A DNA stretch of 45,275 nt from Bacteroidota bacterium. GTDB lineage: Bacteria > Bacteroidota > Bacteroidia > Chitinophagales > Saprospiraceae. Location: contig DROJ01000403.1 in NCBI GenBank assembly GCA_011321935.1, positions 1-45,275 of the forward strand, given 5' to 3'. Positions 6,601-45,015 of the stretch are shown in pieces (within the stretch, counting starts at the first letter, position 1; each line of letters begins with the position of its first letter). The position numbers and the translations under genes are program-made. Below the pieces are notes generated by a model. That model searched no databases, was not told where the DNA came from, and saw only the letters and a list, made by a program, of their open reading frames with translations.

Positions 6601-9600
6601 TGAAGCTCACCACACCACAATTGTCCATTGGGCTGATAAAAGGCCAAGTCACCGCTGCCGAACAAAGCCCGGGGTCGTTGCCCACGGTCATATTGCCGGG
6701 GCAGGGGGCAAGCGTAGGTGGCTCGTTATCCGTCACCTTTACAGAAAATATACATTCAGTAATATTTCCCGTAAAATCCGAAGCCGTATAAGTAATGAAC
6801 TCTGTGCCAACGGGGATAAAATCACCCGGTTCATAAGGCGTCGCTTCAATGAACAATACGCCACAATTATCTTCTGCGGTTGGAGGAGTCCAATCAACTA
6901 CCGCACCGCAAAGCCCCGGATCGTTATTGACCACAATTTCTGCAGGGCAAGGGGCAATGTCCGGTGGCTGCGTATCCCTTACAAACAATTCGTAAGTGCA
7001 AGTAGCCGTATTGTTCGATTGGTCAGTTGCTGTCGCAACAATGATATTCGAGCCTAGCGGCAAAAGATCACCAATTGTAAAACTATAGGACAGCACAACG
7101 CCGGGGCAGTTATCGGTCGCATTTACCAACAGGTCGCCATTAAAAATAGCCCCGCAAGAATCAAGGGTATTGCCGATGGTATCTGGCATCATGGGGCAGT
7201 CGGTGATGACGGGGTCTTGCGTATCGGCCACCGTTACGGTAAATTCACAAGTATCCGCCAGCCCGCCAACATCGGTGGCTATGCTCACCACCGTCGTCAT
7301 CCCGACGGGGAAAAAAGTACCCGATGGCGGAGTGCTGACTATCACAACAGAATCGCAATTATCTGTTGCCGTCACATCAAACGTGACCAACGCATTGCAG
7401 CTATCGGGAGTAGCATCTACGGAAATAGGTGTCGGACAGGTGATGGCCGGAGGAAAGGTATCGGCCATTGTCACTAAGAAAAAACAAGTATCGGAAACGT
7501 TGCCGACCGAGTCCAAAGCTATGATAGCGACTGTTGTATCTGCCATAATTACAGTGCCGTTGGGCGGCACTTGCGTTACTTTCAAAGAATCAGGATGGGT
7601 ACAGTTATCTGTGAACGAAACCAAGCCCCGATAGTCGGGAAGCGTTGCCTGGCAATCCATGTCCGCATACAATATGGTGCCCGACGATGGGCAGGAAGTC
7701 AGCATCGGAGGAATGGTATCCAAAACAGTAACATTGGTAACACAGGAGGCACCATTACTGGCATCGGTCGCAGTGAGTGTAACCATATTGACGCCGATAT
7801 CGGAACAATCAAATGAACTATTATCAATGGCTAGGGTAAACATGCAATTGTCCGTCGAGCCGTTGTCCACATATGAAAGGTCAATCGTTGCCGAACCAGT
7901 GCCGTCCAGATATACAATGGTGTCCGCAAAGCAATTTGCAACGGGCACCTGCATATCGGCTACCACTACATCAAAAGCACAGGTCACGGTGTCGTCGCTT
8001 ATGCTGACCGCTGTATATGTCACTGTCGTTGTACCTACATTAAATACCTGATCGTCGGGCAAAGTGTCCGTGCCGCTGCCCATCGTCGGGGCGGACATAG
8101 AGTAGAACAGTTCCTGTAAATCAGCAATTGGCGCAATGACCGGGCCGTCGGTATTGACCTCGGCATTGCAGGAGTCGGGGTCTGTGGAGACGTTATAGTC
8201 CATCGGGCAGATTATGGTAAGCACATTGTCTTCCGTAATCACTACTTCAAATGAACAACTATCAATATTGCCAGCGGCATCTTCTACGTAATATGTTACC
8301 GTTGAAGTGTCAACAGGGAAACTTGTACCGCTTGCATCTCCTCCGTCACCTTCCATGGTCAACGCACCAGTAATATGGTAGTAGGTGGTATCAATCCCAC
8401 AATTGTCATTTGAAGAGACGAGGGCAATATTGGCAATCATGGTGTCCATTGTTCCTGCAGGTACAAGGATACTGACATTTGCAGGACAAGATAGGGTTGG
8501 CAAAATGTTGTCTTCAACTGTTACCGTCGCAGTGCAATCATCAGTATTAGTGCCGGGATCGGTCGCTGTCAAAGTCACCGTGTTCGCTCCCAAATTGGTG
8601 CAGTCGAAACTACCGTTGTCGATTGACAAAGAGACAGAGCAGTTGTCGGAGCTTCCGTTGTCAACATCTCCCGCTACTATGCTCGCTTGGCCGCTGGCGC
8701 TCAATTGGACAGTGATGTCCTGACACATGGCCACTGGCGGAATATTGTCTTCTACCGTTACCGTTGACGTGCAATCGTCTGTGGCCATGACCGGGTCGGT
8801 CACTGTCAAGGCCACCGTGTTCGCTCCCAAATTGGTGCAGTCGAAACTGCCGTTGTCGATGCTCAAAGTGACCGAGCAGTTGTCGGAACTCCCGTTGTCA
8901 ATATCTCCCGCCACTATGCTCGCTTGGCCGCTGGCGCTCAATTGGATCGTTATGTCCTGACACATGGCCACTGGCGGAATATTGTCTTCTACCGTTACCG
9001 TGGCGGTGCAGTCAACAGTGTTCATGCCCGGGTCGGTCGCTGTCAAAGTCACCGTGTTCGCTCCCAAATTGGTGCAGTCGAAACTGCCGTTGTCGATGCT
9101 CAAAGTGACCGAGCAGTTGTCGGAACTCCCGTTGTCAACATCGGCGGCTACTATGCTTGCTTGGCCGCTCGCACTCAATTGGACAGTGATGTCCTGGCAC
9201 ATGGCCACTGGATTTGTCACATCATCAATAACAACATCTTGCGTCTGCATAGAAACATTGCCGTTTCCATCATCAAAATTCCAAGTGATGGTATGAGTGC
9301 CTTGCGTACTATAAGTTAATGGATCAGTTGTCGTGCCCATTATCACACCTTCGCAATTATCCGTAGCAGTCGGTACAGATGTAACTGTTGCAACGCATTC
9401 GCCAGTCACATCCGGCAAAGTGGCCACGTCAGGGACAGGTGCAGTTACATCATCAACAACTACGTTTTGCGTTTGTGTGACGGTGTTTCCATTGCCATCA
9501 TCATAAGTCCAAGTCACAACGTGTGTACCTTGGGTATTATAAGCCAGCGGGTCAGGAGTTGTACCTGTCAATGTCCCTTCGCAATTATCGGTTGCCGTTG

Positions 9601-11329
9601 GATTGACAGTGATCGTGGCTGAGCACTCGCCCGTTACATCTGGCAAGTTCATAACATCGGGGACAGGAGCAGTTACATCATCAACAATCACATTTTGAGT
9701 TTGCGTGACCGAATTTCCATTACCATCATCGTAAGTCCAAGTGATAATAAAAGTACCTTGTGTATTATAATTTAAAGGATCTGCGGTCGTACCGTTGATT
9801 GGTCCTTTGCAGTTATCAGTTGCAGTAGGTACACCTGTTACCATTACCGAGCATTCTACAATGATGTCAGGTAAATTGGCAACATCGGGAACAGGGTCCG
9901 TAACATCATCTATAACAACTGTTTGGGTTTGGGTCGAAATATTTCCATTGCCATCATCATATGACCAAGTAATGATATGAGTGCCCTGTGTGGTATAAGT
10001 AAGCGGGTCGCCTGTCGTACCCATGATAGCACCTTCGCAAAAGTCCGTTGCGGTAGGTACGGCCGTTACCGTTGCCGAACATTCTTCCATTATTGTTGGC
10101 AAAGTAGCAACATCGGGGACAGGTGCATCTTCATCCAAACCTAAGATTTGACCCGGCTGGAACAATTGGGCAAGAGGGTTTCCCATTGCATCGAACACGC
10201 CCGTGGGAAACCCTGAAAAACCTGTGAAATCAATTTCATATTGAGTAGAACCCGTTGCGGGCGAGTTGAGGTCAAAGTCAATGGTAATCAGCTTGGTAGA
10301 ATCAGGCAAGGGCACTGCCGTCACATTAAACCAATTGAGCCGCAACTCTCCATTTGGGGCATCCGCTTGATTGATATTGGCCGCCGTCACAAGGTTGTTG
10401 ATGGTCAAATTATTAAACGTCACCTCCGAGGTATTCCACCCAATCGGGAATTGGAAAGACGCCACATCGTTAAAATTAATGACCCCTAAACTGATGCTCG
10501 CAGTCATATCTCCGCAATTCAAAGTATCTATGGTGAGGTAAAAACGCGGGTCGGTCGGATTGAACATTTCAATTTCCACATTTACCTCAAATTGGCAGGG
10601 GCTGCTGTTCCCGGCATCATCGGTTACAGTATAAGTTACAGTGGTCATGCCTGGCTTAAATGAAATGCCACTTGAAGAACTACTGGCATTGTTCAAGCCA
10701 TTGCCCGTTGTTGCTCCCGTCAGTGCAAAAGCAACTTCATCAACCGCACAATTGTCTCCAAAAGCAAGCAGGCCAATATTGTTTATCATGGTATCAATAG
10801 TTCCGAAGGGTACCGTAATCATCACATCCGCGGGGCAGGTAAGCGTTGGCGGAGTATTGTCAACAATGGTGACACTGCCTTGGTCAATGGTGAAATTGTT
10901 GATCGGATTGCCCGCTCCATCTCCTATGGTCAAGGTCGATTGGTCAATTTCCACAAGACTGCTTGTACCGTAAGTACCTGTGACCTGAAATTCAATACTG
11001 AACATGACCGTACCGGGCAATGTCTCATCTCCGAATGGCGCAGATTGATCAAACCACGAAAAAGTAAATTGCCCAGGAACAGTTGAGTTGGGAGCAAAAA
11101 GCGGCGGAAGGTTGTTGCTGCTAATGTTTACAAATGTAAGAACGGCAGGGTCCCAAGTAGCGGTATAGCCCAAAAGCCCTATTCCGTTCAGATCATTTAT
11201 GCTGAAATCAACAGTGACCGTATTGACATCACATATTTCAACATCTTCGACACTTAGGTTCACTTGTGAGACTGCCCTGTGCAGTCCAATTGTTAATACG
11301 GTAATCAGGATAAGAAGAAGTTTTTTCAT
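3659..11329 (-). CDS. Giant HYR-domain surface protein (2556 aa) with gliding-motility-associated (T9SS type B) C-terminal domain
   Basis: Signal peptide MKKLLLILITVLTIGLHRAVSQ; many HYR-type units (DNCxxxxx...PVGTTTVTYTATDAAGN...C.F.VTV.D); C-terminus TLITPNEDGINDQFVVSCLE...LIIFNEWGDKVFEA..YDNSWKGTYNGRDLPDGTYFYIF typical of CHU_C/type B CTD. Confidence 0.95.
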   Translation of the reverse strand: MKKLLLILITVLTIGLHRAVSQVNLSVEDVEICDVNTVTVDFSINDLNGIGLLGYTATWDPAVLTFVNISSNNLPPLFAPNSTVPGQFTFSWFDQSAPFGDETLPGTVMFSIEFQVTGTYGTSSLVEIDQSTLTIGDGAGNPINNFTIDQGSVTIVDNTPPTLTCPADVMITVPFGTIDTMINNIGLLAFGDNCAVDEVAFALTGATTGNGLNNASSSSSGISFKPGMTTVTYTVTDDAGNSSPCQFEVNVEIEMFNPTDPRFYLTIDTLNCGDMTASISLGVINFNDVASFQFPIGWNTSEVTFNNLTINNLVTAANINQADAPNGELRLNWFNVTAVPLPDSTKLITIDFDLNSPATGSTQYEIDFTGFSGFPTGVFDAMGNPLAQLFQPGQILGLDEDAPVPDVATLPTIMEECSATVTAVPTATDFCEGAIMGTTGDPLTYTTQGTHIITWSYDDGNGNISTQTQTVVIDDVTDPVPDVANLPDIIVECSVMVTGVPTATDNCKGPINGTTADPLNYNTQGTFIITWTYDDGNGNSVTQTQNVIVDDVTAPVPDVMNLPDVTGECSATITVNPTATDNCEGTLTGTTPDPLAYNTQGTHVVTWTYDDGNGNTVTQTQNVVVDDVTAPVPDVATLPDVTGECVATVTSVPTATDNCEGVIMGTTTDPLTYSTQGTHTITWNFDDGNGNVSMQTQDVVIDDVTNPVAMCQDITVQLSASGQASIVAADVDNGSSDNCSVTLSIDNGSFDCTNLGANTVTLTATDPGMNTVDCTATVTVEDNIPPVAMCQDITIQLSASGQASIVAGDIDNGSSDNCSVTLSIDNGSFDCTNLGANTVALTVTDPVMATDDCTSTVTVEDNIPPVAMCQDITVQLSASGQASIVAGDVDNGSSDNCSVSLSIDNGSFDCTNLGANTVTLTATDPGTNTDDCTATVTVEDNILPTLSCPANVSILVPAGTMDTMIANIALVSSNDNCGIDTTYYHITGALTMEGDGGDASGTSFPVDTSTVTYYVEDAAGNIDSCSFEVVITEDNVLTIICPMDYNVSTDPDSCNAEVNTDGPVIAPIADLQELFYSMSAPTMGSGTDTLPDDQVFNVGTTTVTYTAVSISDDTVTCAFDVVVADMQVPVANCFADTIVYLDGTGSATIDLSYVDNGSTDNCMFTLAIDNSSFDCSDIGVNMVTLTATDASNGASCVTNVTVLDTIPPMLTSCPSSGTILYADMDCQATLPDYRGLVSFTDNCTHPDSLKVTQVPPNGTVIMADTTVAIIALDSVGNVSDTCFFLVTMADTFPPAITCPTPISVDATPDSCNALVTFDVTATDNCDSVVIVSTPPSGTFFPVGMTTVVSIATDVGGLADTCEFTVTVADTQDPVITDCPMMPDTIGNTLDSCGAIFNGDLLVNATDNCPGVVLSYSFTIGDLLPLGSNIIVATATDQSNNTATCTYELFVRDTQPPDIAPCPAEIVVNNDPGLCGAVVDWTPPTAEDNCGVLFIEATPYEPGDFIPVGTEFITYTASDFTGNITECIFSVKVTDNEPPTLAPCPGNMTVGNDPGLCSAAVTWPFISPMDNCGVVSFITLPQSGSTFPLGDTQVQAVATDAAGNVTVCSFTVTVEDVEFPTISNLPQNIVMDTDPGECGAVVTWGAITFGDNCGVDTSYCDAESGDFFGTGMHTVTCTVVDENNNSQTADFNITIEDKELPEVDCPSNINIVMDGGLIDDPSGFIGGLQSVACDSVALSFNGISATDNCGIASVQQTGGLVSGSTFGAGLHTLTYLVSDPSNNQATCSFIIEIEALPNATASAFPANPCEGDDVTFFTDDVLGASYIWTDPAGDTISTDATFTLSGIPMDGAGTYSVEINYPFNCTMTASVGVQLFPKPQIVINHNDLICTNGNVSLILEAVDTANTDVTQCVWEFPDGTFAFGETLTIINANSSHSGVYTVTCTTSNGCTGVASKNVIINDEPPKPDLTANTTEACVGEQIMFDGEEFSGPDITYHWTAMPDAASAGINNVNNHDNIANPTVPGTYTYQYFVTQGVCVSDTAEWIVVVEETPSLSLTTDGAVMCVDGSTDMVITALTGGAATWEISGGCTASQMDSVFTLSNVSSACSGEYTVTASSPIGCSVSETVTFDFTDKPETPVLQATDTVVCMGGSTTLFSSIPQGATTICYKNGQQVPCTFPGSIQPDADATYGIQVEIDGCVSDIGEVAITVEEPLSVDINVAGSVECVDGTSAVVLSTNAAGNTYIWSGPCGTQTGETLTIDNINAACSGLYSVSITGALEQCISIGTIQLEVTDALSDITAVQNGPACEDDDLSLCAEPAMTGAGYEWKDPSGNIFSNDRCPVVPAILEGSYMVTANLNGCTSSDAVDVNIIESPIANDEVVVGIVNTPQSFNVVVNDVLENDDYDITVIQKPSNGSVSYNGDGVFTYTPNRDFRENDVMAYQICYKDCPNACDVALVSIQVRFPGDQCIATTLITPNEDGINDQFVVSCLEVGQCPDNQLIIFNEWGDKVFEAAPYDNSWKGTYNGRDLPDGTYFYIFQCDTKQEAEKGFVMIYR
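8483..9206 (-). repeat. About 3 tandem near-identical 237-bp (79-aa) repeat units inside the giant HYR gene
   Basis: Start of unit 'ACATGGCCACTGGCGGAATATTGTCTTCTACCGTTACCG' recurs with 237-bp spacing (8727, 8964); protein unit PPVAMCQDITVQLSASGQASIVAGDVDNGSSDNCSVTLSIDNGSFDCTNLGANTVTLTATDP. Confidence 0.9.
9206..10133 (-). repeat. Four diverged tandem repeats of about 76 aa inside the giant HYR gene
   Basis: Protein unit DDVTAPVPDVATLPDVTGECVATVTSVPTATDNCEGVIMGTTTDPLTYSTQGTHTITWNFDDGNGN..TQTQ occurs four times. Confidence 0.88.
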
Positions 11330-11730: not shown

Positions 11731-14700
11731 TTAATCCATCAATATCATTTTCTTGACCGCTGAGTCGGTCGGTGTATCAAGACGGTAAATCAGCACGCCT
11801 TTGGCCGATAGCTCCTCTTTTCCAACAAATACTTGGTTGTAGCCAGCAGGGTAATTGCCTTCGATCACTGTCAGCACTCTGCCTGCTGCATCCATGATAG
11901 TCAATGTCGCAGCAGAACTTTCCGGCAAGGTGAAACCGATTGCTGTCCTTTGGGCAAATGGGTTTGGTGTGTTTTGGTGCAAGGCAAAACCAGGTTTTAC
12001 TTGCTCGCCCGTGGCCGTTGTCGTTTCAAACATAATACCGATACTGCGCCTGCCATCTTCGCCAAAAGCAATGGCGGGGATGAGGTCAGAGTTGATCCAG
12101 ATCAGGTCGCTGATCGTTGCCGCATCGTCCAGAGCCTTGAAAGTCAAGGTCATTATCTGTTCTCCATCTTCCAAAGTAGCTGCCTCGACATCAAACCACG
12201 TGGCAGGTATCATTCCGTTGGACGCATTTGCCGTATTGAAATTGGCATCCGTGAAATTTGGCAGGTTGCCAGCAGCAATGCTCACAAATTCCAGTTCGTG
12301 GTTATCAAAAACAATCGTTTTCTGGAAAGAAGAAATTTCATTGAAATCATTGGCCATAAGTGCTACCGAGAACACTTCGCCGGCCGAAACAGAACGGTCT
12401 TCTGCCACCATGTAGAGGGCGTTCCGATCTTCTGCGGCATTGGGTGCAAAAGCAACAGTCGGGTCAGCATCACAAGTAACGTCCCCGATCTTGATTCCAT
12501 AAAAATCGCCCATCAAATGGTCGGCGACTACATTGACATAGCTGATCTCCTCGTCAGGTGCAGGGAAAGCGGTGTTCACGGGCACAAAGGCCGGCACTTC
12601 GCCTGGAGGAATAAAACGCCAAGAGTTCAGGGTGGTAATGCCCGTCGGGTCATAGCTATTCAATATCAATGTATTCAGGCGGAACACATCAAACAGGTCT
12701 ATCAAATTATCGCCGTTTATATCGCCCGCTATCATCTTCGGCCCAGAGCCATTAAGCGAAGATGGCAAGTTGACCGAATACAACAACAACTGCTGCACAT
12801 CATTTGAAAAGACACCGTTGGCCCAATTGCTGTTCTTGATAGGAGTGATGGTAGAACTAGCCCCTTCTGGTACATTAAAGCTATAAGAGCCCGCTGCACC
12901 AAGTATGTTGCCTCCTGTACTTCCCGACAAGGTCACATCAACAAAATTCACGGGGTCAACACCACATCCGGGCATTTCCATGAAATTACCTGCCAGTTCA
13001 TGTGTAATGGCAGTGTTCAAAATGGCAACCGTTCCGGCCAAGCCGAGGGAAGGTGCAGGTGCACCATTTACACCCACTGCGTCATTTGCAATAACGACTG
13101 GCGTTGACTGACCTGCCGAACCGACCAACATCACCTTGATATCGAACAATTTCGTCCCCGGCGCAAGCGAAACATTGGCGGAGCCTACCCAAGAGATTTC
13201 GCCGGTCGCTTGATTGATGGTTGGCGTACCGGGAATGGCATTGGCAAGTATATCGGGGTGCACGTTCACTATTGAAGAAGCAGCAAAGGTCGCTACCGCT
13301 AAATCAGTGATGTCAATGTCCAAAGTGAACAAGCTCACATCGTCGAACATATCCACGGTCACTGGCACTTCGATCATTTGCCCCGGCGCGCCCGACATAT
13401 CGTTTATGTCGAAAATGACGCCGCCCATGACCGTCACCGTAGAGGTACAACTGTTGGTGTTGCCCGCTGCGTCGGTAGCTGTCATAGTAACAATCACCTG
13501 CCCGATGTCGGCAGTGGTAAAGGCCGTCTGCGAAAGGCTAAGGGTCATGCCCGGACAGTTATCAGAGCTTCCATTGTCAACTCCCGCTGCGGTCAATGTT
13601 CCGTTTCCATTATTGTCCAGTTGGACGGTAACGGCAGGGTTGCAATTGGCGGATGGGTTTTGAGAATCAATGACTTCCATGGTCAAGGTATGCATGGTTA
13701 TGTTGCCGCACTCATCTTCTGCCGTCCATTCAATCACATAAGTACCCGGGGCATAAAAACCCGAGGCATCGGCCAAACCATCTCCCGTTCCGAAGTTTGC
13801 AAGAGCATCATTGGTAATGGTATAAAGGCTACAATCATCTGAGATGAAAGAAGACAGGTCGAGGTCAACAAATGGCGTGCAGATGCCACCTTGCGCCAAT
13901 ACACTTTTGGTGGTCGGATAGTTAAATACCGGGCCGTTTTCATCACTCGTCGTAATGATCTGTGCTTGTGTAAGTGCTTCATTTCCACAATCGTCTTTCA
14001 AGTCCCAAAGGCGGGCCATGCAGAATTCGCGGGGGCAATCTATTGCCGGTACCGGACAGATCAGTTTGTCAACATATACAAAGTTGGTGATGGTGGTGAC
14101 ACCTGGGCCAAATTTCCCATCAGATGATTGCTGGGAGAAACCAAACACATCTCCTCCCATCACCGGAATGACGGCTCTTCCACTTTGGGTCAAGCCTCCA
14201 ATATCATTCGTCAATTTTTCAAAAGAGGCACTTGTTCCTATATAATACCCGAATGGGTCAAATTCAGGGTCATCAATCGTCGTATAAGACCAATCAAAAA
14301 TCACCCAGCCCATTTCTGGAATGCCCGTTTCAAAATTCGATTCCCCTCCGCTTCCATTATCTGGACCAGTCAAAGAAATTGAGGTTGGGGCAGTAACAGT
14401 TAAACTTCCATCATGACCGGGCAGTTCTTCATATTCCCAAACACCATGAACGCCATTTGAACCAAATGTGCCAGACGAACCAACAGAAAAATCATAAGTC
14501 ACCGAAGTAGGTGCCAACGAAAGATAGGCCGTATTGCTTTGGAAACCTTTGAATGCTTGGTAATCCTTATAAGTCGCATCTGGCAAATCGCAGTTGTCCA
14601 GTTCATCGGTCACATCACCTGTGAGTGCTGCCAATTGGCCTGGGTCAGAAGGAGTGACATAGCAGATGTCCAAGCCCCAAGAGATGAGGTTGCCACCGTC

Positions 14701-17700
14701 AATACTAAAATTATCTGCTATAATCAATAGCCATGTACCATCCATTTGCTCTCCGATAAAATCGGATAAATTGCCAGAAGGTTGATAAACACCATTATCT
14801 GTTGGTGGACATGGGAAGGAGCCATAAGCATTGGGAGATTCATCATCAAAATTAATTTCGATATTATCCGTAACGCCACAACTATTGACATATAGATCCA
14901 CGCTGGTCCCAGTAGGGCTTTCAAGCCTGATAGATAAATCACCAACCCAAGTATGCTCAATCTCAAGATTAGACACGTTCACATCCATGATTTTTCCAAG
15001 GCCAGCGATCACTATTTCGGAAGTATCAAGATCATGGGCACTAAAAAGAATTCCTTTCGGCACATCGGTACTTACCCATGAATCGCAAAGGTGGTTCACT
15101 ACATCCGCAGAGCCATCTGCACATGCCACGTCTGCATCGGCAGGAGCAGTGAAAGAAGGCACCGTTGTATCTTCTACATAAATCCTTTGAGTACAAGAGG
15201 TCATCGTTCCTTCGCCATCTTCTACCGTCCATGTGCGGTCAACATAATAGACATAACCAGCTGTGCCACAGTTAGCAGCGGTAACCCTTGCCGCATCAGA
15301 AAAAGACCTAGTGACTTCGCAGTTGTCATACATGGTACCAGCCAAAGTCAAAGGTATTATCTGGACTTCCACCACATCCCCCGTCCTGGAAGGCATCAGG
15401 TTTTCAAGATTCGGATCCGGATTGGTACATTCTACTGTTATGTCAGAAGGACATAAAATCTGCGGCGCCTCATTGTCCTGAACTGTAATCATAGAGGTAC
15501 AGATGGCTGAATTGACAGTGGGGTCGTTAAGACAGGTTTCCGTTACCCGAATATAAACCATGTTCGCTCCAAGTTCTGTGCAATCAAAAGTTATATCGCT
15601 GGAGTAAGTAATTCCGTCTTTTGATATTTCCCTGCCGAGGTTAAACCCACAACAGGCATCAAAACTGGACAAAGAAAACTGCAATGGGAAGATGGTCACC
15701 ATGCCGTCAGATTGCAGGGCAACAGCGGCGTCCGTACAAGATGCCACAGGCGGCACATTGTCTATAACAGTAACATCGGAAGTACAAGTGGAAGTATTCG
15801 TTCCGTCATCCAATGTCAAAGTAACTGTAACCGGTGGATTTCCAGGAAGGTTAGTAATATCACCACAATCAAAAGCAGTCATATCAAGCGACATGGTGAA
15901 AGAGCAGTTGTCGGTACTGCCATTGTTTATATCGGCAGGGGCAAGGGTGAAATTCCCGCTGGCATCCAGATAGGCATCAAAAGTTGGATGGCAGATTGCA
16001 GTGGGAGGAGTTGCATCATTTACAGTAACCGATGCCATGGCAGGAACGAGCGACTGGTTTCCATATTCATCTTTCACATGAAGCCAGACGGTATTAGCCC
16101 CCTGGTCATTGCAATCAAATGTGACCGACGGTCCAAATGTGCCCGGCTGAAGACCGGGGGTATTGGGGTCATCTTTAGCAATCAAATACATATCAATTGC
16201 ACAATCATCAGAACTTGGCGTTACCGTATCATCAATATCGGCACCGGTAACGGTCACTGATCCGGGATTGGCTGCACTTAAATTACGGGCGATGTCTTCT
16301 GCCCTAGCTATCGGCCGAGTAACATCCCTGACGGTAACGGTAGCAGAGCAGAAATTTTCATTTCCTTCATCATCCACTATGCGCAGTTCCACATCATTAT
16401 CATTTATATCAGCACATCCAAACATTACCGTTTCGCCAAATGTCCCTCCCGGCAATTTCCTGATTTCAAAATTTGCATCCACTAATGGAATAGTGCAATT
16501 GTCGGTGCTCCCATCATCAATATCTGTATCGTCCACTGTCACCGAAGGGGTCATTCCCGTAACCAAATCAACGGTAATATCTTTACATACAGCATCTGGT
16601 GGAAGATTGTCCTCAATGGTCAGCATACAAGTAACAACAGGTGATATATTAGCAGGGGAGGCCACATCTACAACCCTGAAATCAACAGGAAATGGACTTG
16701 CCATAATATCCGCACAACCAAACGGCACGGCTTCTTCCCATAGATTCAAGTCCATATCAAAATCAAGTGGGTCTTCTATTTCAAACCTCAATATGCCACA
16801 ATTATCAGTACTTCCATCGTCAAAGCTGGAAGCACTTACGGTTACATTTCCATTTGCATCCAAAGAGGCTGTAATATTTTTACACACCGCCATAGGGTTT
16901 TGGTTGTCTTCCACGGTGATGGTAAATGTCTGGGTAACAGTATTTCCAGCCTCATCTTCGGCAGAAAATGTCACCACACTCGCGCCCGCATTGAAATCAA
17001 GATTGACAATAGAAACTCCCGGACCGGAAGCTGTTGTAGCTCCCGTTACAGTATATTCCATAGTAATAACTCCAACCGGGTTGCATGAGGTAGAATTGTC
17101 TGTAACCGGCCCGGCATTAAAAGAAAGGGTTTGGATGCAGCCCGCAGGTGAAAAAGTCTGGGACGAAAAAGTGTTAGTGAACATCGGGGCTTCATCATCT
17201 ACCACCGTCACGTCAAAAGAGCAGGTAGCTGTATTCGTTCCGTCACTTGCGGTATAGGTCACGGTAGTCGTACCTTTATCAAAGACGTCGCCTGGATTAT
17301 GGGTAGAAGTAAAAGATGAAATTCCACAGTTGTCCCCAGCAGCAGGCGCTGTCCAGTTAACAGTGGTACTACAATTTCCCGCCCCATCATCGCTGGTCTC
17401 TGCCGTAATATCTGCAGGACAACCAGTAATAACAGGGTCTTGGTCATCTGAGATCGTAACCACCGTAGAAACATTGACAGTATTCGTACCATCAGTAACA
17501 GTGAAATTAACGGTAGTCACTCCCACGTTATAAATCCCGCCCGCATTACCTGTCCCCGACCCCGAGGTAGCACCTACACGTACCCAACTGATCGAAATGT
17601 TCCCATTACAATTGTCAGTAACAGTAGGAAGCAATGGATCAACCAAGATAGAACAAGCCCCTGGATCTGCGGCCATGTTCACCGCTGCCGGAGCAACCAC

Positions 17701-18195
17701 AACAGGTGGCACAAGGTCAACAATGGTGACAACAAAGGGAAGAGGAGCGCTTTGCACCCCAGCCCCAACATCATCCAAAGTAACAAAGACAACAACAACG
17801 GTACCTATATCCGAGCAATTAAAGGTCGGTCCAGGCAAGGCCGTTTGATAAGGAGTCACTGGTGGATTCGCACCGTCTTCCCAAATAGAAAGCGTACCTC
17901 CGCCTGAAGGAAGGCACTGTGGGAAAGAACTTGACACAAATGGCTCCAAAAAAGTACTGTTCAAAATAGCAGTACCAGAGTTGTCCAATGAAAGGCTCAC
18001 AGCCCCCGTAATTCCTGGCGCATAGCCAATATTACATTGTGCAAGTAGGGAATCAGAAGTAAAGCAACAAAGAAACATCGTTGCCATCAAACCGGTCATC
18101 AAAACCTTCGGCATCCGGGGCCGTAGGTTCGTGACCTGTTCATAGAATTGGAGTAAGCGGTTCGTAATGCCCGCTTGAGTGTTGAACTTTAGCAT
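11731..18195 (-). CDS. Giant multidomain HYR surface protein (2154 aa) with proprotein-convertase P-domain, cohesin-like and dockerin-like segments and T9SS type A sorting domain
   Basis: HYR units throughout; P-domain-like IEHTWVGDLSIRLESPTGTSVDLY...MDGTWLLIIADNFSIDGGNLISWGLDICY; cohesin-like FDINDMSGAPGQMIEVPVTVDMFDDVSLFTLDIDI; dockerin-like GDINGDNLIDLFDVFRLNTLIL; C-terminus HQNTPNPFAQRTAIGFTLPESSAATLTIMDAAGRVL...VLIYRLDT. Confidence 0.93.
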   Translation of the reverse strand: MLKFNTQAGITNRLLQFYEQVTNLRPRMPKVLMTGLMATMFLCCFTSDSLLAQCNIGYAPGITGAVSLSLDNSGTAILNSTFLEPFVSSSFPQCLPSGGGTLSIWEDGANPPVTPYQTALPGPTFNCSDIGTVVVVFVTLDDVGAGVQSAPLPFVVTIVDLVPPVVVAPAAVNMAADPGACSILVDPLLPTVTDNCNGNISISWVRVGATSGSGTGNAGGIYNVGVTTVNFTVTDGTNTVNVSTVVTISDDQDPVITGCPADITAETSDDGAGNCSTTVNWTAPAAGDNCGISSFTSTHNPGDVFDKGTTTVTYTASDGTNTATCSFDVTVVDDEAPMFTNTFSSQTFSPAGCIQTLSFNAGPVTDNSTSCNPVGVITMEYTVTGATTASGPGVSIVNLDFNAGASVVTFSAEDEAGNTVTQTFTITVEDNQNPMAVCKNITASLDANGNVTVSASSFDDGSTDNCGILRFEIEDPLDFDMDLNLWEEAVPFGCADIMASPFPVDFRVVDVASPANISPVVTCMLTIEDNLPPDAVCKDITVDLVTGMTPSVTVDDTDIDDGSTDNCTIPLVDANFEIRKLPGGTFGETVMFGCADINDNDVELRIVDDEGNENFCSATVTVRDVTRPIARAEDIARNLSAANPGSVTVTGADIDDTVTPSSDDCAIDMYLIAKDDPNTPGLQPGTFGPSVTFDCNDQGANTVWLHVKDEYGNQSLVPAMASVTVNDATPPTAICHPTFDAYLDASGNFTLAPADINNGSTDNCSFTMSLDMTAFDCGDITNLPGNPPVTVTLTLDDGTNTSTCTSDVTVIDNVPPVASCTDAAVALQSDGMVTIFPLQFSLSSFDACCGFNLGREISKDGITYSSDITFDCTELGANMVYIRVTETCLNDPTVNSAICTSMITVQDNEAPQILCPSDITVECTNPDPNLENLMPSRTGDVVEVQIIPLTLAGTMYDNCEVTRSFSDAARVTAANCGTAGYVYYVDRTWTVEDGEGTMTSCTQRIYVEDTTVPSFTAPADADVACADGSADVVNHLCDSWVSTDVPKGILFSAHDLDTSEIVIAGLGKIMDVNVSNLEIEHTWVGDLSIRLESPTGTSVDLYVNSCGVTDNIEINFDDESPNAYGSFPCPPTDNGVYQPSGNLSDFIGEQMDGTWLLIIADNFSIDGGNLISWGLDICYVTPSDPGQLAALTGDVTDELDNCDLPDATYKDYQAFKGFQSNTAYLSLAPTSVTYDFSVGSSGTFGSNGVHGVWEYEELPGHDGSLTVTAPTSISLTGPDNGSGGESNFETGIPEMGWVIFDWSYTTIDDPEFDPFGYYIGTSASFEKLTNDIGGLTQSGRAVIPVMGGDVFGFSQQSSDGKFGPGVTTITNFVYVDKLICPVPAIDCPREFCMARLWDLKDDCGNEALTQAQIITTSDENGPVFNYPTTKSVLAQGGICTPFVDLDLSSFISDDCSLYTITNDALANFGTGDGLADASGFYAPGTYVIEWTAEDECGNITMHTLTMEVIDSQNPSANCNPAVTVQLDNNGNGTLTAAGVDNGSSDNCPGMTLSLSQTAFTTADIGQVIVTMTATDAAGNTNSCTSTVTVMGGVIFDINDMSGAPGQMIEVPVTVDMFDDVSLFTLDIDITDLAVATFAASSIVNVHPDILANAIPGTPTINQATGEISWVGSANVSLAPGTKLFDIKVMLVGSAGQSTPVVIANDAVGVNGAPAPSLGLAGTVAILNTAITHELAGNFMEMPGCGVDPVNFVDVTLSGSTGGNILGAAGSYSFNVPEGASSTITPIKNSNWANGVFSNDVQQLLLYSVNLPSSLNGSGPKMIAGDINGDNLIDLFDVFRLNTLILNSYDPTGITTLNSWRFIPPGEVPAFVPVNTAFPAPDEEISYVNVVADHLMGDFYGIKIGDVTCDADPTVAFAPNAAEDRNALYMVAEDRSVSAGEVFSVALMANDFNEISSFQKTIVFDNHELEFVSIAAGNLPNFTDANFNTANASNGMIPATWFDVEAATLEDGEQIMTLTFKALDDAATISDLIWINSDLIPAIAFGEDGRRSIGIMFETTTATGEQVKPGFALHQNTPNPFAQRTAIGFTLPESSAATLTIMDAAGRVLTVIEGNYPAGYNQVFVGKEELSAKGVLIYRLDTPTDSAVKKMILMD

Positions 18196-39240: not shown

Positions 39241-40284
39241 TTATGCCTCAAAACCACAAGCCTGCCGGAAAGTAAAATGTGCCAATGCTGCCGGAACGGC
39301 TTTCCATTTTTCCAACAGGTCCCAGCCCGGTTGCTGGCTGACTTTGAGGTATTCGTTGCCGGGGTTTTTGGAAATATTGATGGCCGCAGAGGTGAGGGAA
39401 ATGAGCAGGCGGGCAGCGATGAGGTGGTAAAGCAGTTCCAGTTCTTGCTCCTCCAGCGGGAAAATTTCGTGCGTGCCGGCCACTATCTGCGCAGCGGCGG
39501 TCAGCGGGTCGTTTTTGCGCTGAACGGCATAGGCGATGGCGATGGCCAGTTCGTTGACAGTGGCAGAATGAACAATGTCGCCGAAGTCAATGATGCCCGA
39601 AACGGCGGGGTTTTCGGGGTCGGCATTTACCAAAACATTAAAATCGTTGGCGTCGTTGTGCAGCACCGAATGGCGCAGGGCAGGCAGTTTTGGCAGCGCA
39701 TTTTTTATGGACAATCCGTAAAAATGCTCCGCCAGCGCCCGCTTCTCTTTGTTTTTTATAAAATGAAAAAACCGCTCCGTCCATGCCGCCTGTGCTGTGT
39801 CCCATTCAAAATAACGGTGGGCGGCGGGGTGGTCGAAACCCCGCAGGCCATTGCAAAGATGGCCGATGCTTTGTCCGAGGTTTTTCAATAACCGGGGGCT
39901 GTGCGGGTTTACGTTTACGAGCATCCTGCCTTCTACCCAAGTCAGCAGCCTCAGCAGCCGTTGCCCGTTTTTTTTGCTTTTGAGGAGGGTGGTGTTTTCT
40001 CCGTTTTTGTTTTTGATGATGCGCGGGAAGGTCAGTTGGGGGAGGTGCTTTTCGAGGTGGAGCAGCATTTCGTTCTGGGCTTCGAGCTGTTCCTTTTCCT
40101 CGCCGGGCTTGTATATTTTGAGGACGTATTTTTTGCCGCTTTTTGTTTTCAATAAAAAATTGAGGTCGGCGTAGCTGGGCAGGGGACTGGCAGTGGCATG
40201 GATGCCGAAATATTCGAGGGCAAGTTTTTCTGCTTCTTTTTTGGAAAATGGCGGCATGTTATAAAGGTTGTTTTTTACAGCCAA
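39241..40284 (-). CDS. APH-family phosphotransferase (hydroxylysine/ethanolamine-kinase-like)
   Basis: VLKIYKPGEEKEQLEAQNEMLLHLEKHLPQLTFPRII; catalytic HSVLHNDANDFNVLV and GIIDFGDIVHSATVNELAIAIAY. Confidence 0.85.
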   Translation of the reverse strand: MAVKNNLYNMPPFSKKEAEKLALEYFGIHATASPLPSYADLNFLLKTKSGKKYVLKIYKPGEEKEQLEAQNEMLLHLEKHLPQLTFPRIIKNKNGENTTLLKSKKNGQRLLRLLTWVEGRMLVNVNPHSPRLLKNLGQSIGHLCNGLRGFDHPAAHRYFEWDTAQAAWTERFFHFIKNKEKRALAEHFYGLSIKNALPKLPALRHSVLHNDANDFNVLVNADPENPAVSGIIDFGDIVHSATVNELAIAIAYAVQRKNDPLTAAAQIVAGTHEIFPLEEQELELLYHLIAARLLISLTSAAINISKNPGNEYLKVSQQPGWDLLEKWKAVPAALAHFTFRQACGFEA

Positions 40285-41267
40285 TTATTCTTTTTGTACC
40301 ATTCCAATGTTTCTTCCAGCCCTTTTTCCAGATCATATTCTGGCTCAAAATTCAAATCTTTTTTTAATGCCGAAATATCGCATTTCCAGTTCATGCTTTC
40401 CAGAATACTGACTTTTTCCAGGTTCAGGGCTGGATATTTTCCCGTCACTTTCGCGGGCTGCTCCAATAACCACGCAATGCTCCTGACCAGCCCCACGGGC
40501 ACATGAAAGCGCAGGGTTTTTTTATTTAAAATACGTTTGGCATATTTCCCCAAATCCCACTGCGTATAATATTTTCCGTCGGAAACAAAATAGGCTTTTT
40601 GCATGTGCGGAGAAACAGTGGCATCAATAATAACCCTCGCCAAATCTTTTACATAAATAAAAGCGAGGTGCTGGTCGCGGCTGCCGATATAGCCTTCTAT
40701 ATTTTTATTGATTAATTTAAAAAAGGTGAGTATTTCTTTTTCGCGCGGCCCATACACTCCTCCCGGACGGATGACGACATACGGGAAATCATTTAGCTGT
40801 GCTAAATATTCTTCTGTTTTTAATTTAGATTTTCCATAGGTATTGATGGGCTTGCGTATATGTCCCTCTTTTAAAAAATCGGAAAGGTCGTCGCTGCTTG
40901 CCGGGCCATAAGAAGCGAGGCTGCTGATATAAGTAAATTTATTCGGAATATATTTGGAAGCATATATAGCTTCGATAAAATTTTTTGAAAATTCATAATT
41001 GACCCGGTAATAGTCTTCCAGTTTTGGCACAGATACAACGCCCGCATTGTGGACTATATAATCGAATTTATTGGCTTTTAATTTTTTTGCCAATTCGTTT
41101 TTATTTGAAAAATCCATTTCCAAAAAACGGATGCGCCCATCTTTTAAATATTGCCTGCTGCTCGTTTTTCTTATGCCCGCATATACTTCCATATCCCGCC
41201 CCAAAGCCTCCTCGACCAAATGGCTGCCCACAAAACCCGATGCACCAGTAATCAATATTTTTTTCAT
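40275..41267 (-). CDS. NAD-dependent epimerase/dehydratase (extended SDR); candidate ceramide reductase (CerR-like) by context
   Basis: MKKILITGASGFVGSHLVEEALGRDMEVYAGIRKTSS, YISSLASYGPAS, INTYGKSKLKTEEYL, VIRPGGVYGPREKEILTFF. The functional call rests on neighbours only. Confidence 0.88.
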   Translation of the reverse strand: MKKILITGASGFVGSHLVEEALGRDMEVYAGIRKTSSRQYLKDGRIRFLEMDFSNKNELAKKLKANKFDYIVHNAGVVSVPKLEDYYRVNYEFSKNFIEAIYASKYIPNKFTYISSLASYGPASSDDLSDFLKEGHIRKPINTYGKSKLKTEEYLAQLNDFPYVVIRPGGVYGPREKEILTFFKLINKNIEGYIGSRDQHLAFIYVKDLARVIIDATVSPHMQKAYFVSDGKYYTQWDLGKYAKRILNKKTLRFHVPVGLVRSIAWLLEQPAKVTGKYPALNLEKVSILESMNWKCDISALKKDLNFEPEYDLEKGLEETLEWYKKNNWL

Positions 41268-41277
41268 AAAAATAATT

Positions 41278-41375
41278 AAATGGTTAAATGGTTGAATGGT
41301 TGAATGGTTTTTCCCGCAAGGCAAGTACACGTCATGTGGGAAAAACCATTCAACCATTTAACCATTCAACCATTT
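41278..41375. repeat. Inverted repeat with 38-bp arms built from ATGGTTGA/ATGGTTAA 8-mers, overlapping the GNAT-like stop codon
   Basis: AAATGGTTAAATGGTTGAATGGTTGAATGGTTTTTCCC / GGGAAAAACCATTCAACCATTTAACCATTCAACCATTT (36/38 paired). Confidence 0.93.
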
Positions 41376-42496
41376 ATTCTCTTCTCATAAATGCGGTACC
41401 GTTTATATGCTACCATATTGGCCCTTTCCACTCCTTTTTTCATCATCTCGTTATTGTCCAATATCCAAGAGGCTTCGGCTTCATTGTAGCCTTTTTCCAT
41501 TCCCCTCGAAATAATGCGGGAAATAAAAATAGCCTCGATGCCCATTTTACGATAGCCTTCCAAAACGCCGAGCAGTATGACCCGCAAACGTTTTATTTTC
41601 TTTTTTTGAAATAATAATTTGAATATACCGGTAGGCAATAAGCGGCCGCGTTTTATATTTTTTGCAATTACATTAATGTCTGGAACGGCCAATGCAAATG
41701 CAACGGCTTTTCCCTCGTGTTCGGCAATCAGGCCAAAGTCGGGGTCTATGACCATTTTCAGCCCCTCGGCCAAATGGTCGAACTCGGCATCGGTGGGCGG
41801 CACGAAGCCCCAGTTTTTGTCCCAGGCACCTTTATATATTTCGCGGATAGTGGCGGCCTCTTTTTTGAAATTTTTCATGACCACGTTGCGGATAGTGACG
41901 CCCCTTTTTTTCAAACGCTCGCCCAGCATATTGGCAAGGCGGACCGATTTCATGCTGATGGTGTCCTCGGTGGCGAGGTAGGCCAGCATGTCCATTTGTT
42001 TGGCGAAGCCGTACCTTTCGAGGAAGGTGGCATAATAGGGTTTATTATAGGTGGTCATAATTACGGGCGGCCGGTCGAAGCCTTCCACTAATAGCCCGGC
42101 GGTGTCATTTGTGGAAAAATTGGTGGGCCCCAATATGGCATCCAGTTTTTCATTTTTAATCCAAGCGGTGGCTTTGTCCAAAAGTGCTTTGGCCACTCCG
42201 TAATTTTCGATTACATCAAAAAGGCCAAAAAAACCGACATTGGCACCGGCGAATTTATTGTATTCATTATTGCGGATAGCGGCGATGCGGCCCACTATTT
42301 TTCCATTATTATAAGCGAGGTACAGTTGCACTTTTGAATGTTGGAAAAAAGGGTTTTTCTTTTCGCTCAACAATTCTTTTTGACCGATATATATTTCGGG
42401 AACATAATTAGGGTCGTCTTTATATAAGTCGTGCGGAAAATCAATAAACCGCTTTTTGTCGCGCTTGGATTTTACTTCGGTGATGGTGGTGTCCAT
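41366..42496 (-). CDS. GNAT-like acyltransferase-fold protein; candidate bacterial ceramide synthase (bCerS-like) by context
   Basis: KKRFIDFPHDLYKDDPNYVPEIYIGQKELL...VGRIAAIRNNEYNKFAGANVGFFGLFDVIENYGVAKALLDKATAWIKNEKLDAILGPTNFSTNDTAGLLVEGFDRPPVIMTTYNKPYY; adjacent to SPT and an SDR. Confidence 0.8.
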   Translation of the reverse strand: MDTTITEVKSKRDKKRFIDFPHDLYKDDPNYVPEIYIGQKELLSEKKNPFFQHSKVQLYLAYNNGKIVGRIAAIRNNEYNKFAGANVGFFGLFDVIENYGVAKALLDKATAWIKNEKLDAILGPTNFSTNDTAGLLVEGFDRPPVIMTTYNKPYYATFLERYGFAKQMDMLAYLATEDTISMKSVRLANMLGERLKKRGVTIRNVVMKNFKKEAATIREIYKGAWDKNWGFVPPTDAEFDHLAEGLKMVIDPDFGLIAEHEGKAVAFALAVPDINVIAKNIKRGRLLPTGIFKLLFQKKKIKRLRVILLGVLEGYRKMGIEAIFISRIISRGMEKGYNEAEASWILDNNEMMKKGVERANMVAYKRYRIYEKRING

Positions 42497-42576
42497 ATTG
42501 GTTGTTTTAGATGACGGGCGTCCGGCACCTGAAATTTAAATCAAAATATAGGAGCGGGTTTTTATTTGTTGCTACC

Positions 42577-42793
42577 CAATGCTCCTCACAATCCTGAAGG
42601 GATTGAATTTGAATAGCCCCGGATGAAATCCGGGGTAAACAATCAAGGATGGTGGCAACCCCGAAGGGGTTGAATATTTGTCTCCAGAATTTACATTCAA
42701 CCCCTTTGGGGTTGCCACTTGCTTTTACCGTCTCCCCCGGATTTCATCCGGGGTTATTCAAATTCAATCCCTCCGGGATTGTGAGGAGTATTG
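42577..42793. repeat. 217-bp nested inverted-repeat element with about 100-bp arms, each arm containing three short palindromes
   Basis: CAATGCTCCTCACAATCCTGAAGGGATTGAATTTGAATAGCCCCGGATGAAATCCGGGG...GTGGCAACCCCGAAGGGGTTGAAT, with the reverse complement on the right; 55/59 and 23/24 matches in the two blocks. Confidence 0.95.
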
Positions 42794-42807
42794 AACAATA
42801 ACCTTTA

Positions 42808-42854
42808 TTTTCAAAAATTTGGAGGTCACAATTTGTGACCTCCAATTTTGAAAA
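42808..42854. repeat. Inverted repeat in the SPT/GNAT intergenic region
   Basis: TTTTCAAAAATTTGGAGGTCACAA-T-TTGTGACCTCCAATTTTGAAAA. Confidence 0.85.
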
Positions 42855-42951
42855 CTCTTTTTCGGCTACCTCAACAATATTATTTGAGGCGCAAATTTGG
42901 AGGACGCAATCTGCGGCCTCCAAACTATCCTAAATTAATCATTAATCATTT

Positions 42952-44163
42952 TCAAACCTCCTGCCCCACCAATATATCCAATTTCCTCGCCACCATCGCT
43001 ATCTTGTCAACGGCCTCCTCGATCTGCTCAAAAGTATGTGTTGCCATCAAAGAAAAGCGGATCAACGTATCCTCCGGCGCGACTGCAGGTGTGATGACGG
43101 GATTGACAAAAACCCCTGCTTCTTGCAGCATATGGGTGAGCATAAAAGTTTTGTTGATGTCCCTCACATAGATCGGGATGATGGGCGTTTCGGAAGGGCC
43201 GGTATCGAAGCCGAGTTCATCGAGCATGCCTTTGGCGTGGCGGGTGTTGGCCCATACTTTTTCGATGCGTTCGGGCTCCGATTGGATGAGTTCCAGTGCG
43301 GCAATGACCGCCGCCGCATTGGCCGGGGCGATGCTTGCGCTGAAGATGAGTGAGCGGGCGTGGTGCTTGAGCCAATTGGCAATTTCATGGCTCGTGGCAA
43401 TGAAGCCGCCGATGGTCGCCAATGATTTGGAGAAGGTGCCCATGACGAGGTCCACCTCGTCGGTGAGGCCAAAATGGTCGCAGGTGCCCCTGCCGAGATT
43501 GCCCAAAACGCCGAGGCCGTGGGCGTCGTCCACCATGATATTGGCCTTGTACTTTCTGGCCAGTTCAACAATTTCGGGCAATTTGCAAATGTCGCCTTCC
43601 ATGCTGAACACGCCGTCCATGACGATGAGGGCCATGTCGTTGGGGCCTCTTTTTTGACCAACCATGCGCAGTGTTTTTTCCAACGATTCCATGTCGTTGT
43701 GGCGGTACTTGCGGGTGGTGGCAAAGGAAAGTCGGGTGCCGTCAATGATGGAGGCGTGGTCGAGTTCATCAATGATGATGAAGTCCTTGCGGCCCAGCAG
43801 CGAGGACAGCACGCCGAGGTTGACCTGCATGCCCGTACTGAAAACGATGGCCTCCTCTTTGCCGACGAATTCGGCGAGGGCATGTTCCAGTTTGACGTGG
43901 AGATCGAGCGAGCCGTTGAGGAAACGGGAACCGGCACAGCCGGAGCCGTATTTGTCAATGGCGCGCTTGGCGGCCTCTTTGAGTTTAGGGTGGTTGGTCA
44001 GCCCGAGGTAAGAGTTCGAGCCGAACATGAGCACTCTCTTTCCGTTCATCGTGACGACGGTGTCCTGGTCGCTTTCGATGGCCCGGAAATAGGGATAGAC
44101 CCCAGCGGCTTTCACCTTTTGTGGTTCGGTGTACCGCGCCATTTTTTGTTGGAGCAAGTTCAT
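42952..44163 (-). CDS. spt: Alpha-oxoamine synthase family PLP enzyme, probable serine palmitoyltransferase (SPT)
   Basis: VLMFGSNSYLGLTNHPKLKEAAKRAIDKYGSGCAGSRFLNGSLDLHVKLEHALAEFVGKEEAIVFSTGMQVNLGVLSSLL...DELDHASIIDGTRLS...VDDAHGLGVLGNLGRGTCDHFGL...MGTFSKSLATIGGFI; closer in style to SPT/KBL than to BioF. Confidence 0.85.
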   Translation of the reverse strand: MNLLQQKMARYTEPQKVKAAGVYPYFRAIESDQDTVVTMNGKRVLMFGSNSYLGLTNHPKLKEAAKRAIDKYGSGCAGSRFLNGSLDLHVKLEHALAEFVGKEEAIVFSTGMQVNLGVLSSLLGRKDFIIIDELDHASIIDGTRLSFATTRKYRHNDMESLEKTLRMVGQKRGPNDMALIVMDGVFSMEGDICKLPEIVELARKYKANIMVDDAHGLGVLGNLGRGTCDHFGLTDEVDLVMGTFSKSLATIGGFIATSHEIANWLKHHARSLIFSASIAPANAAAVIAALELIQSEPERIEKVWANTRHAKGMLDELGFDTGPSETPIIPIYVRDINKTFMLTHMLQEAGVFVNPVITPAVAPEDTLIRFSLMATHTFEQIEEAVDKIAMVARKLDILVGQEV

Positions 44164-44350: not shown

Positions 44351-44755
44351 TTAAACAGCCCAGTTATCAATCTCCAATTCACTGATTGGGCTGAAATGTT
44401 TAGTATTGTTGGTTATCAATATGAGGTCGTTTTCGATTGCCGTGCCTGCGATTAAAATATCGGTGTGACCGATAGTTACCCCTGATTTTCTCAGGTCAGA
44501 ATATATCCTTGCAGAAATATCCGCTCCTTTATGTGTCAATGGCAATACATTGTGGACTTCAACAAAAGTTTGAAGTTTGTCCAGCATGTTTTTCGAGTCC
44601 TTATAAATGAGGCCATTTTTGAGTTCGTAAAATGTTACGGCACTCAAATAGATCGATCCACCGTTTAAGATATGATTGTTTATTTTTTCAACCACTTTTT
44701 TTTCACTCCTAAAAAAGTAGGAAATTATATCCGTATCCACGATGACATTTTTCAT
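44351..44755 (-). CDS. VapC-like PIN-domain toxin
   Basis: MKNVIVDTDIISYFFRSEKKVVEKI...ISAVTFYELKNGL-like segment...GVTIGHTDILIAGTAIENDLILITNNTKHFSPISELEIDNW. Confidence 0.9.
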   Translation of the reverse strand: MKNVIVDTDIISYFFRSEKKVVEKINNHILNGGSIYLSAVTFYELKNGLIYKDSKNMLDKLQTFVEVHNVLPLTHKGADISARIYSDLRKSGVTIGHTDILIAGTAIENDLILITNNTKHFSPISELEIDNWAV

Positions 44756-45015
44756 AACTCCACATTGCGGTTAAAAAGGTTGCTTCTTATTTCCTTAAAA
44801 TAGTTCTGCAATTCTTCAAATTCCTTATCGCTCATATCCGACCAAGCCCCTGCCAAGGACATGGTTATCCTTGCCCGCTCCTTGGCATCTAATTTTTTGT
44901 ATTTTTCTTTTGATTTTAAATGCGTTAAATACTCATCCACTTGTGGAAGGTATTCAACAGGTATTGTACTTAATTTTTGAAGTACCGATTGATATATTTC
45001 ACTGCTGCTTCCCAT
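44752..45015 (-). CDS. Putative antitoxin partner of the VapC-like toxin (87 aa)
   Basis: Overlaps the toxin start by 4 bp, same strand; MGSSSEIYQSVLQKLSTIPVEYLPQVDEYLTHLKSKEKYKKLDAKERARITMSLAGAWSDMSDKEFEELQNYFKEIRS. Confidence 0.75.
   Translation of the reverse strand: MGSSSEIYQSVLQKLSTIPVEYLPQVDEYLTHLKSKEKYKKLDAKERARITMSLAGAWSDMSDKEFEELQNYFKEIRSNLFNRNVEL

Follow-up and report, generated by a model that had tools for sequence, protein, structure and literature searches.

A predicted ceramide core pathway encoded by adjoining SPT, GNAT and SDR genes on a Saprospiraceae contig

The stretch of DNA analysed here, referred to as the window, is a whole contig of 45,275 nucleotides (C403) from a Bacteroidota assembly of 6.74 Mb in 633 contigs. 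Three of its genes, encoding a serine palmitoyltransferase (SPT), a tandem-GNAT N-acyltransferase and an epimerase-type short-chain dehydrogenase/reductase (SDR), very probably form the bacterial ceramide core pathway, as judged by their sequences, whereas the gene behind them, which encodes an APH-family kinase, falls outside the conserved set (Table 1). The cluster is a new example of an already known pathway, and its arrangement is common among relatives. As stated in the original prediction, which was made from the sequence before this analysis, the four genes share one strand and follow each other as SPT, GNAT, SDR and kinase. The ORF list shows all four open reading frames (ORFs) on the minus strand, and each has a Pfam match, i.e., Aminotran_1_2 with 186 bits for the SPT, Acetyltransf_1 with 36 bits for the GNAT (first half only), Epimerase with 116 bits for the SDR, and APH with 99 bits for the kinase.

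Identification of the three core genes

The SPT gene scored 671.7 bits against the NCBIfam model NF047600 (serine palmitoyltransferase, CFB type), which has an equivalog cut-off of 640, while the NCBIfam models for KBL, BioF and ALAS all remained below their own cut-offs. A search of the PDB returned SPT (8guh/3a2b) with 502 bits, BioF/KBL-type enzymes with 316 bits, and cysteate acyltransferase (CFAT) with 245 bits. The active-site alignment revealed that the lysine binding pyridoxal phosphate (PLP; K246), the stacking H136, N50 and R369 are all retained. Furthermore, the protein carries Ala276, the SPT-type residue, at the site of Lys281 of SulA, which is the residue setting cysteate acyltransferases apart (PMC9304779). 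In a fast tree, the window SPT was placed among SPT-operon enzymes, and the other oxoamine synthases encoded by Caulobacter and by its own genome lay at a distance. The NF047600 score, the PDB scores and the tree rule out a KBL/BioF identity, in agreement with the earlier assignment of this oxoamine synthase as an SPT. A CFAT/SulA identity is ruled out by the alanine in place of lysine and by the 245 versus 502 bits.

For comparison with a characterized pathway, we used four Caulobacter genomes reached via a marker protein, the fourth being a fragmented metagenome-assembled genome whose spt contig ends 0.6 kb past spt. In three of the four, the window GNAT had one end-to-end match (36–37% identity over residues 2–374, E 1e-61 to 1e-66). 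The Caulobacter neighbourhood comprises an AMP-binding gene, a CerR-like SDR and Spt, followed by a gene without Pfam match, a DAGK-type kinase (the DAGK-like CpgB), a metallophosphatase, a DUF2141 gene, LptF/LptG and then, at 6–11 kb from spt, the GNAT, which matches the published cluster order (cpg genes CCNA_01217–01219 and bCerS CCNA_01212, PMC10331486 and PMC10865984; further locus numbers in PMC11324152). Because its position agrees with this order, the Caulobacter GNAT was identified as the ceramide synthase bCerS. Full-length alignment with the GNAT at the bCerS position supports the earlier suggestion that the window GNAT is a putative ceramide synthase. A tree built from 76 GNATs placed the Caulobacter proteins among the SPT-operon clades (SH-like approximate likelihood ratio test, SH-aLRT, 98), and a further group, clade B, was separate (support 100, branch length 1.05). 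Five residues, W225, N228, R305, E341 and W344 in window numbering, are common to the SPT-linked clade A and the Caulobacter proteins and are absent from clade B. The AlphaFold model of the window GNAT reached a predicted local distance difference test (pLDDT) score of 93.5. A Foldseek search with this model retrieved tandem-GNAT enzymes, e.g., MAB_4324 and mycothiol synthase, at 8–14% identity, and a PDB sequence search with the window GNAT gave no useful match. As modelled, the acyltransferase has two domains and no near relative of solved structure.

The ORF of the SDR is readable from 41357, but its Rossmann start MKKILITGASGFVG is found at 41267, the start used in the original prediction. 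The N-terminus opens directly with the Rossmann strand, and the protein carries the cofactor site TGASGFVG as well as a YxxxK motif (Y144-x3-K148). In all four Caulobacter genomes, its top match was the SDR immediately upstream of spt, at 24–26% identity. We also calculated a quick SDR tree, which took in the other epimerases of the window's genome and further SDRs from Caulobacter. One clade united the SPT-linked SDRs with the CerR-position genes of Caulobacter (48 rows, SH-aLRT 97), and the other epimerases of the window's genome lay outside it. One SDR (L267) lay outside the SPT-linked clade and is, by its position in the tree, probably not a CerR. The grouping with the CerR-position genes supports the proposed role of the window SDR as a candidate ceramide reductase. 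Generic labels had been expected for both proteins, and annotation libraries indeed give little more: the GNAT receives a GNAT domain in its first half and no NCBIfam name, and the SDR is matched in NCBIfam by generic epimerase models only.

Table 1. Features of the cluster and its surroundings in the window
Feature	Position	Strand	Basis
Spt, predicted serine palmitoyltransferase, 403 aa	42952..44163	-	NF047600, PDB matches, active-site alignment
Putative bCerS-family ceramide synthase, tandem-GNAT N-acyltransferase, 376 aa	41366..42496	-	Caulobacter homology, tree, alignment, AlphaFold, Foldseek
CerR-like SDR, putative epimerase-type reductase, 330 aa	40275..41267	-	Caulobacter matches, SPT-linked clade
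Stand-alone APH-family kinase, 338 aa from ATG	39241..40257	-	Pfam APH, PRK06148
Palindromic repeat, imperfect, arms of 99 nt, in the SPT–CerS gap	42577..42793		
Terminator-like hairpin downstream of SPT	42819..42845	-	Consensus scan; 14 sites versus 9.5 in shuffles, weak
Inverted repeat, 42 nt, built from GGTTGAAT units, in the CerS–SDR gap	41277..41376		
VapC of VapBC-like pair upstream of SPT	44351..44755	-	PIN/VapC models, ORFs
Putative antitoxin of VapBC-like pair	44752..45015	-	PIN/VapC models, ORFs

Synteny, known systems and the proposed pathway

A count over 158 genomes from the phylum gave 115 with SPT plus clade-A GNAT and 38 lacking both; two genomes had SPT only, two had the GNAT only, and one was unclear (counted by hand, with E-value thresholds near 1e-119 for SPT and near 1e-70 for the GNAT). 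The window's own class is the informative part of this count, because most of its genomes lack SPT, whereas almost every genome outside this class is positive. Here, four genomes had both genes, 34 had neither, and in one (G033) a clade-B GNAT accompanied SPT. At 64 other SPT loci, the GNAT usually adjoins SPT, and the SDR adjoins either of the two. SPT–CerS–CerR on one strand is the usual order in the window's family and near kin, with 4-bp overlaps in several close relatives. Compared to these, the window's cluster is loosely packed, with gaps of 455 bp between SPT and GNAT and 98 bp between GNAT and SDR. As the same genes adjoin in dozens of genomes, the clustering is not a matter of chance. 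A paper on Black Sea sphingolipids describes the three core genes as unclustered in sphingolipid-producing Bacteroidota (PMC11334938). The loci seen here contradict this statement, which does not apply to the phylum at large either.

Comparison with Caulobacter crescentus (spt, CCNA_01212 and CCNA_01222 for Spt, bCerS and CerR) shows the same three families, with Spt being 38–39% and the GNAT, end to end, 35–37% identical, and with the CerR-position gene as the best match of the SDR, at only 22–26% identity. Differences concern the arrangement: only Caulobacter has an AMP-binding gene of the acyl-ACP-synthetase type beside the cluster and a distant bcerS behind cpg and lptFG, whereas the three genes of the window stand in direct series without any of these neighbours. 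CerS and CerR of Bacteroides (BF9343_4218 and BF9343_4240) and the SPT BT_0870 come from the same phylum and have the same proposed activities (PMC10865984); they are likened here by description. In sphingolipid-producing Bacteroidota such genes are reported to lie apart (PMC11334938), in contrast to the adjoining genes of the window and many of its relatives.

From homology, synteny and conserved residues, we infer the activities, the step order and the end product as follows. Spt would make 3-ketosphinganine, the tandem GNAT (bCerS) would then N-acylate this long-chain base, and the CerR-type SDR would reduce the 3-keto group with NAD(P)H, yielding dihydroceramide. The order of acylation and reduction is undecided by sequence and debated in the literature (PMC11087976, PMC9278070). 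Regarding the headgroup, the SPT–CerS–CerR blocks of many relatives run on into genes for myo-inositol-phosphate synthase (MIPS), PgpA, GtrA and DUF5686, and the blocks of other relatives have a CDP-alcohol transferase, a fatty acid hydroxylase and an AUR1-like PAP2 gene upstream. An overlapping gene set of B. thetaiotaomicron was shown to make phosphoinositol dihydroceramide (PMC9246714). The inositol-lipid cluster of this species, BT_1522–BT_1526 (AUR1-like PAP2, CDP-alcohol transferase, PgpA-like protein and MIPS), lies apart from spt there (PMC9246714), but is joined to SPT–CerS–CerR in near relatives of the window's organism. In the window's genome, the set is mostly present on other contigs: C404 carries MIPS–PgpA–GtrA together with a DAGK/YegS-type lipid kinase, and the end of C319 carries an AUR1-like PAP2 gene and a fatty acid hydroxylase. 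Because of these inositol-lipid genes in the same genome, phosphoinositol dihydroceramide is the likely end product, and by the genes present, inositol phosphate is the likeliest headgroup. The end of the window contig and the contig with PAP2 and hydroxylase fit in orientation and share no end sequence, and we do not claim a link between them.

Clade-B GNATs and sulfonolipids

In three SPT operons, the synthase slot is occupied by a clade-B GNAT, which applies to L171:8371-9489 (G033), L264:10203-11327 (G343, a member of the window's own genus) and L266:5300-6418 (G396). These slot-holding proteins are 30–32% identical to the window GNAT, while the adjoining SPT and SDR are 59–75% and 46–60% identical to those of the window. 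As the single-contig genome G033 has no clade-A GNAT, the clade-B protein is its sole candidate ceramide synthase of the GNAT family. A single clade of all SPT-operon GNATs was rejected by the approximately unbiased (AU) test with p 0.020, an optimistic value since the grouping was picked after the tree had been seen. A common origin of the three swaps was not rejected (p 0.197).

Elsewhere, clade B was found mostly in genomes without SPT. At L296:6199-9804, a clade-B GNAT stands tail to tail with a CFAT (706 bits to PDB 28eh), behind which comes a PALP-family gene, a candidate for cysteate synthase, and at L297:3950-7014, a CFAT lies one gene from a clade-B GNAT. These may be sulfonolipid loci. 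Among the clade-B loci looked at, only these two, both from one family, had a CFAT nearby. CFAT belongs to the sulfonolipid (capnine) pathway (cysteate synthase, CFAT/SulA/CapB and ketocapnine reductase), the chemistry of which runs parallel to that of ceramide synthesis; it differs from the window in the synthase, which is an SPT here by overall sequence and diagnostic residue. The N-acyltransferase of sulfonolipid synthesis was named in no paper that we found, and a 2024 paper, which identified the third of four enzymes to sulfobacin B, describes most enzymes of the pathway as not yet known (PMC11211663). The clade-B GNAT is a candidate for this N-acyltransferase, a lead resting on two related loci. 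We raise, as a tentative possibility, that the synthase slot is open to two anciently diverged tandem-GNATs, and that clade B represents the missing sulfonolipid N-acyltransferase, which could also stand in for the ceramide synthase. In the window's genome, there are likewise a CFAT-like gene with 66% identity to a CFAT (L007:1375-2628, contig C228) and a clade-B GNAT (L305:10308-11453, contig C481). By these genes, the organism may make sulfonolipids besides sphingolipids.

The APH kinase, alternative readings and surroundings

The original prediction counted the APH kinase as part of the cluster and described a 10-bp overlap of its ORF with the SDR gene. This overlap exists only with a TTG start at 40284, whereas the ATG at 40257 leaves a gap of 17 nt. 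In the best matches, homologous kinase domains align from query residue 2–8, which fits the ATG, so the SDR and APH genes are more likely 17 nt apart. The overlap was rejected both as a real feature and as evidence of coupling, since it needs the improbable TTG start. The protein aligns to PRK06148 in the N-terminal portion of that model (341.8 bits) and has intact HNDANDFN and IDFG motifs, and a PDB sequence search with it returned no match. Its homologues elsewhere are nearly all N-terminal domains of frames of 720–1130 aa, i.e., APH–aminotransferase fusions. Only two other stand-alone copies were seen (G030 and G199), neither with an SPT nearby. Furthermore, the APH gene is missing from all 64 other SPT loci, and in G343, the only congener sampled, an opposite-strand gene takes the place after the SDR. 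A CpgB-type ceramide kinase was also considered and rejected, as the protein has an APH domain rather than the DAGK catalytic domain with GGDG motif that marks this kinase type, and the Caulobacter CpgB-position gene matches DAGK_cat. Cluster membership of the kinase was therefore not confirmed. Judged by its homologues, the gene is a lineage-specific neighbour, a free-standing copy of the fusion kinase domain, and it may be co-transcribed with the cluster. Regarding lipid kinases in the same genome, the DAGK/YegS-type gene after MIPS–PgpA–GtrA (L303:8723-9616) is a better candidate than the APH gene.

Several alternative explanations of the locus were weighed. The generic domain annotation of GNAT and SDR would be compatible with three unrelated ordinary enzymes (a KBL/BioF-type synthase, an acetyltransferase and a sugar epimerase) that are neighbours by chance, but the equivalog-level SPT score, the recurrent synteny, the trees and the co-occurrence make this vanishingly improbable. 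We also regard it as very improbable that the cluster makes a capnine-type sulfonolipid, with the synthase acting as a cysteate acyltransferase and the GNAT as its N-acyltransferase. The parallel pathways and the separate CFAT-like gene and clade-B GNAT of the genome would fit such a role; however, the synthase scores 502 bits to SPT versus 245 to CFAT, it has Ala276 where CFAT/SulA has Lys281 (PMC9304779), and the window GNAT belongs to the bCerS clade and not to clade B. A ceramide pathway is thus preferred, although some observations weigh against it. The SDR is only 22–26% identical to Caulobacter CerR and separated from Caulobacter by a long branch (2.05), so that the CerR call leans on synteny and the quick tree; the predicted CerR is the weakest of the three identifications. 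Caulobacter CerR has also been reported to be periplasmic (PMC11087976). Lastly, the repeats and the hairpin between the genes may hint at a loss of the single transcript.

Within a ceramide pathway, the steps might still be ordered or extended differently. The reductase could act first, as in eukaryotes, with the SDR converting 3-ketosphinganine to sphinganine and the GNAT acylating the latter. This appears possible but doubtful: 3-ketosphinganine reductase activity has been reported for BT_0972 of Bacteroides thetaiotaomicron (PMC9278070) and the order is under debate (PMC11087976), yet Caulobacter accumulates oxidised ceramide once cerR is lost, its CerR is periplasmic (PMC11087976), and the window SDR falls within the CerR-position clade. 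An extension is conceivable if the APH kinase were a true fourth step, phosphorylating the long-chain base, the ceramide, or ethanolamine for a headgroup. Its gene lies on the same strand 17 nt past the SDR with intact catalytic motifs, and ceramide or dihydrosphingosine is phosphorylated in other bacteria (PMC10331486). Nevertheless, such a step is unlikely, given the lack of APH in all 64 other SPT loci and the opposite-strand gene at this place in G343, the DAGK-like nature of the known ceramide kinase CpgB (PMC10331486), and the relatives of the APH protein, which are domains of APH–aminotransferase fusions without a link to SPT. Acylation followed by reduction, encoded by the three core genes, is the order that we propose.

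As to the surroundings, copies related to the palindromic repeat between SPT and CerS (75–80% alike, ~190–220 bp) were found in this genome directly ahead of MIPS (L303:5935-6121 and L321:2802-2995), and this dispersed repeat may have contributed to the break-up of an ancestral operon. Where the window has its VapBC-like pair, an AUR1-like PAP2 gene is present in the congener G343 (L264/L307 comparison). The contig end (45107..45275) is formed by a 68-nt inverted repeat with 97% complementarity, of which a related copy is present in L314 of the same genome. Two large minus-strand genes at 3659..11329 and 11731..18195 (2556 and 2154 aa) resemble surface or secreted proteins that are rich in repeats and have sorting-like C-termini, and are located near a PorP/SprF-type gene.

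The compact SPT–CerS–CerR block, often accompanied by inositol-lipid genes, offers a rule, based on synteny, by which the ceramide synthase and reductase can be named. Because annotation libraries leave these two enzymes unnamed, it is easy to overlook the capacity of environmental Bacteroidota to make sphingolipids. Furthermore, with the synthase swapped for a sulfonolipid-linked paralog, a few genes are enough for a direct test of which enzyme N-acylates sulfonolipids.

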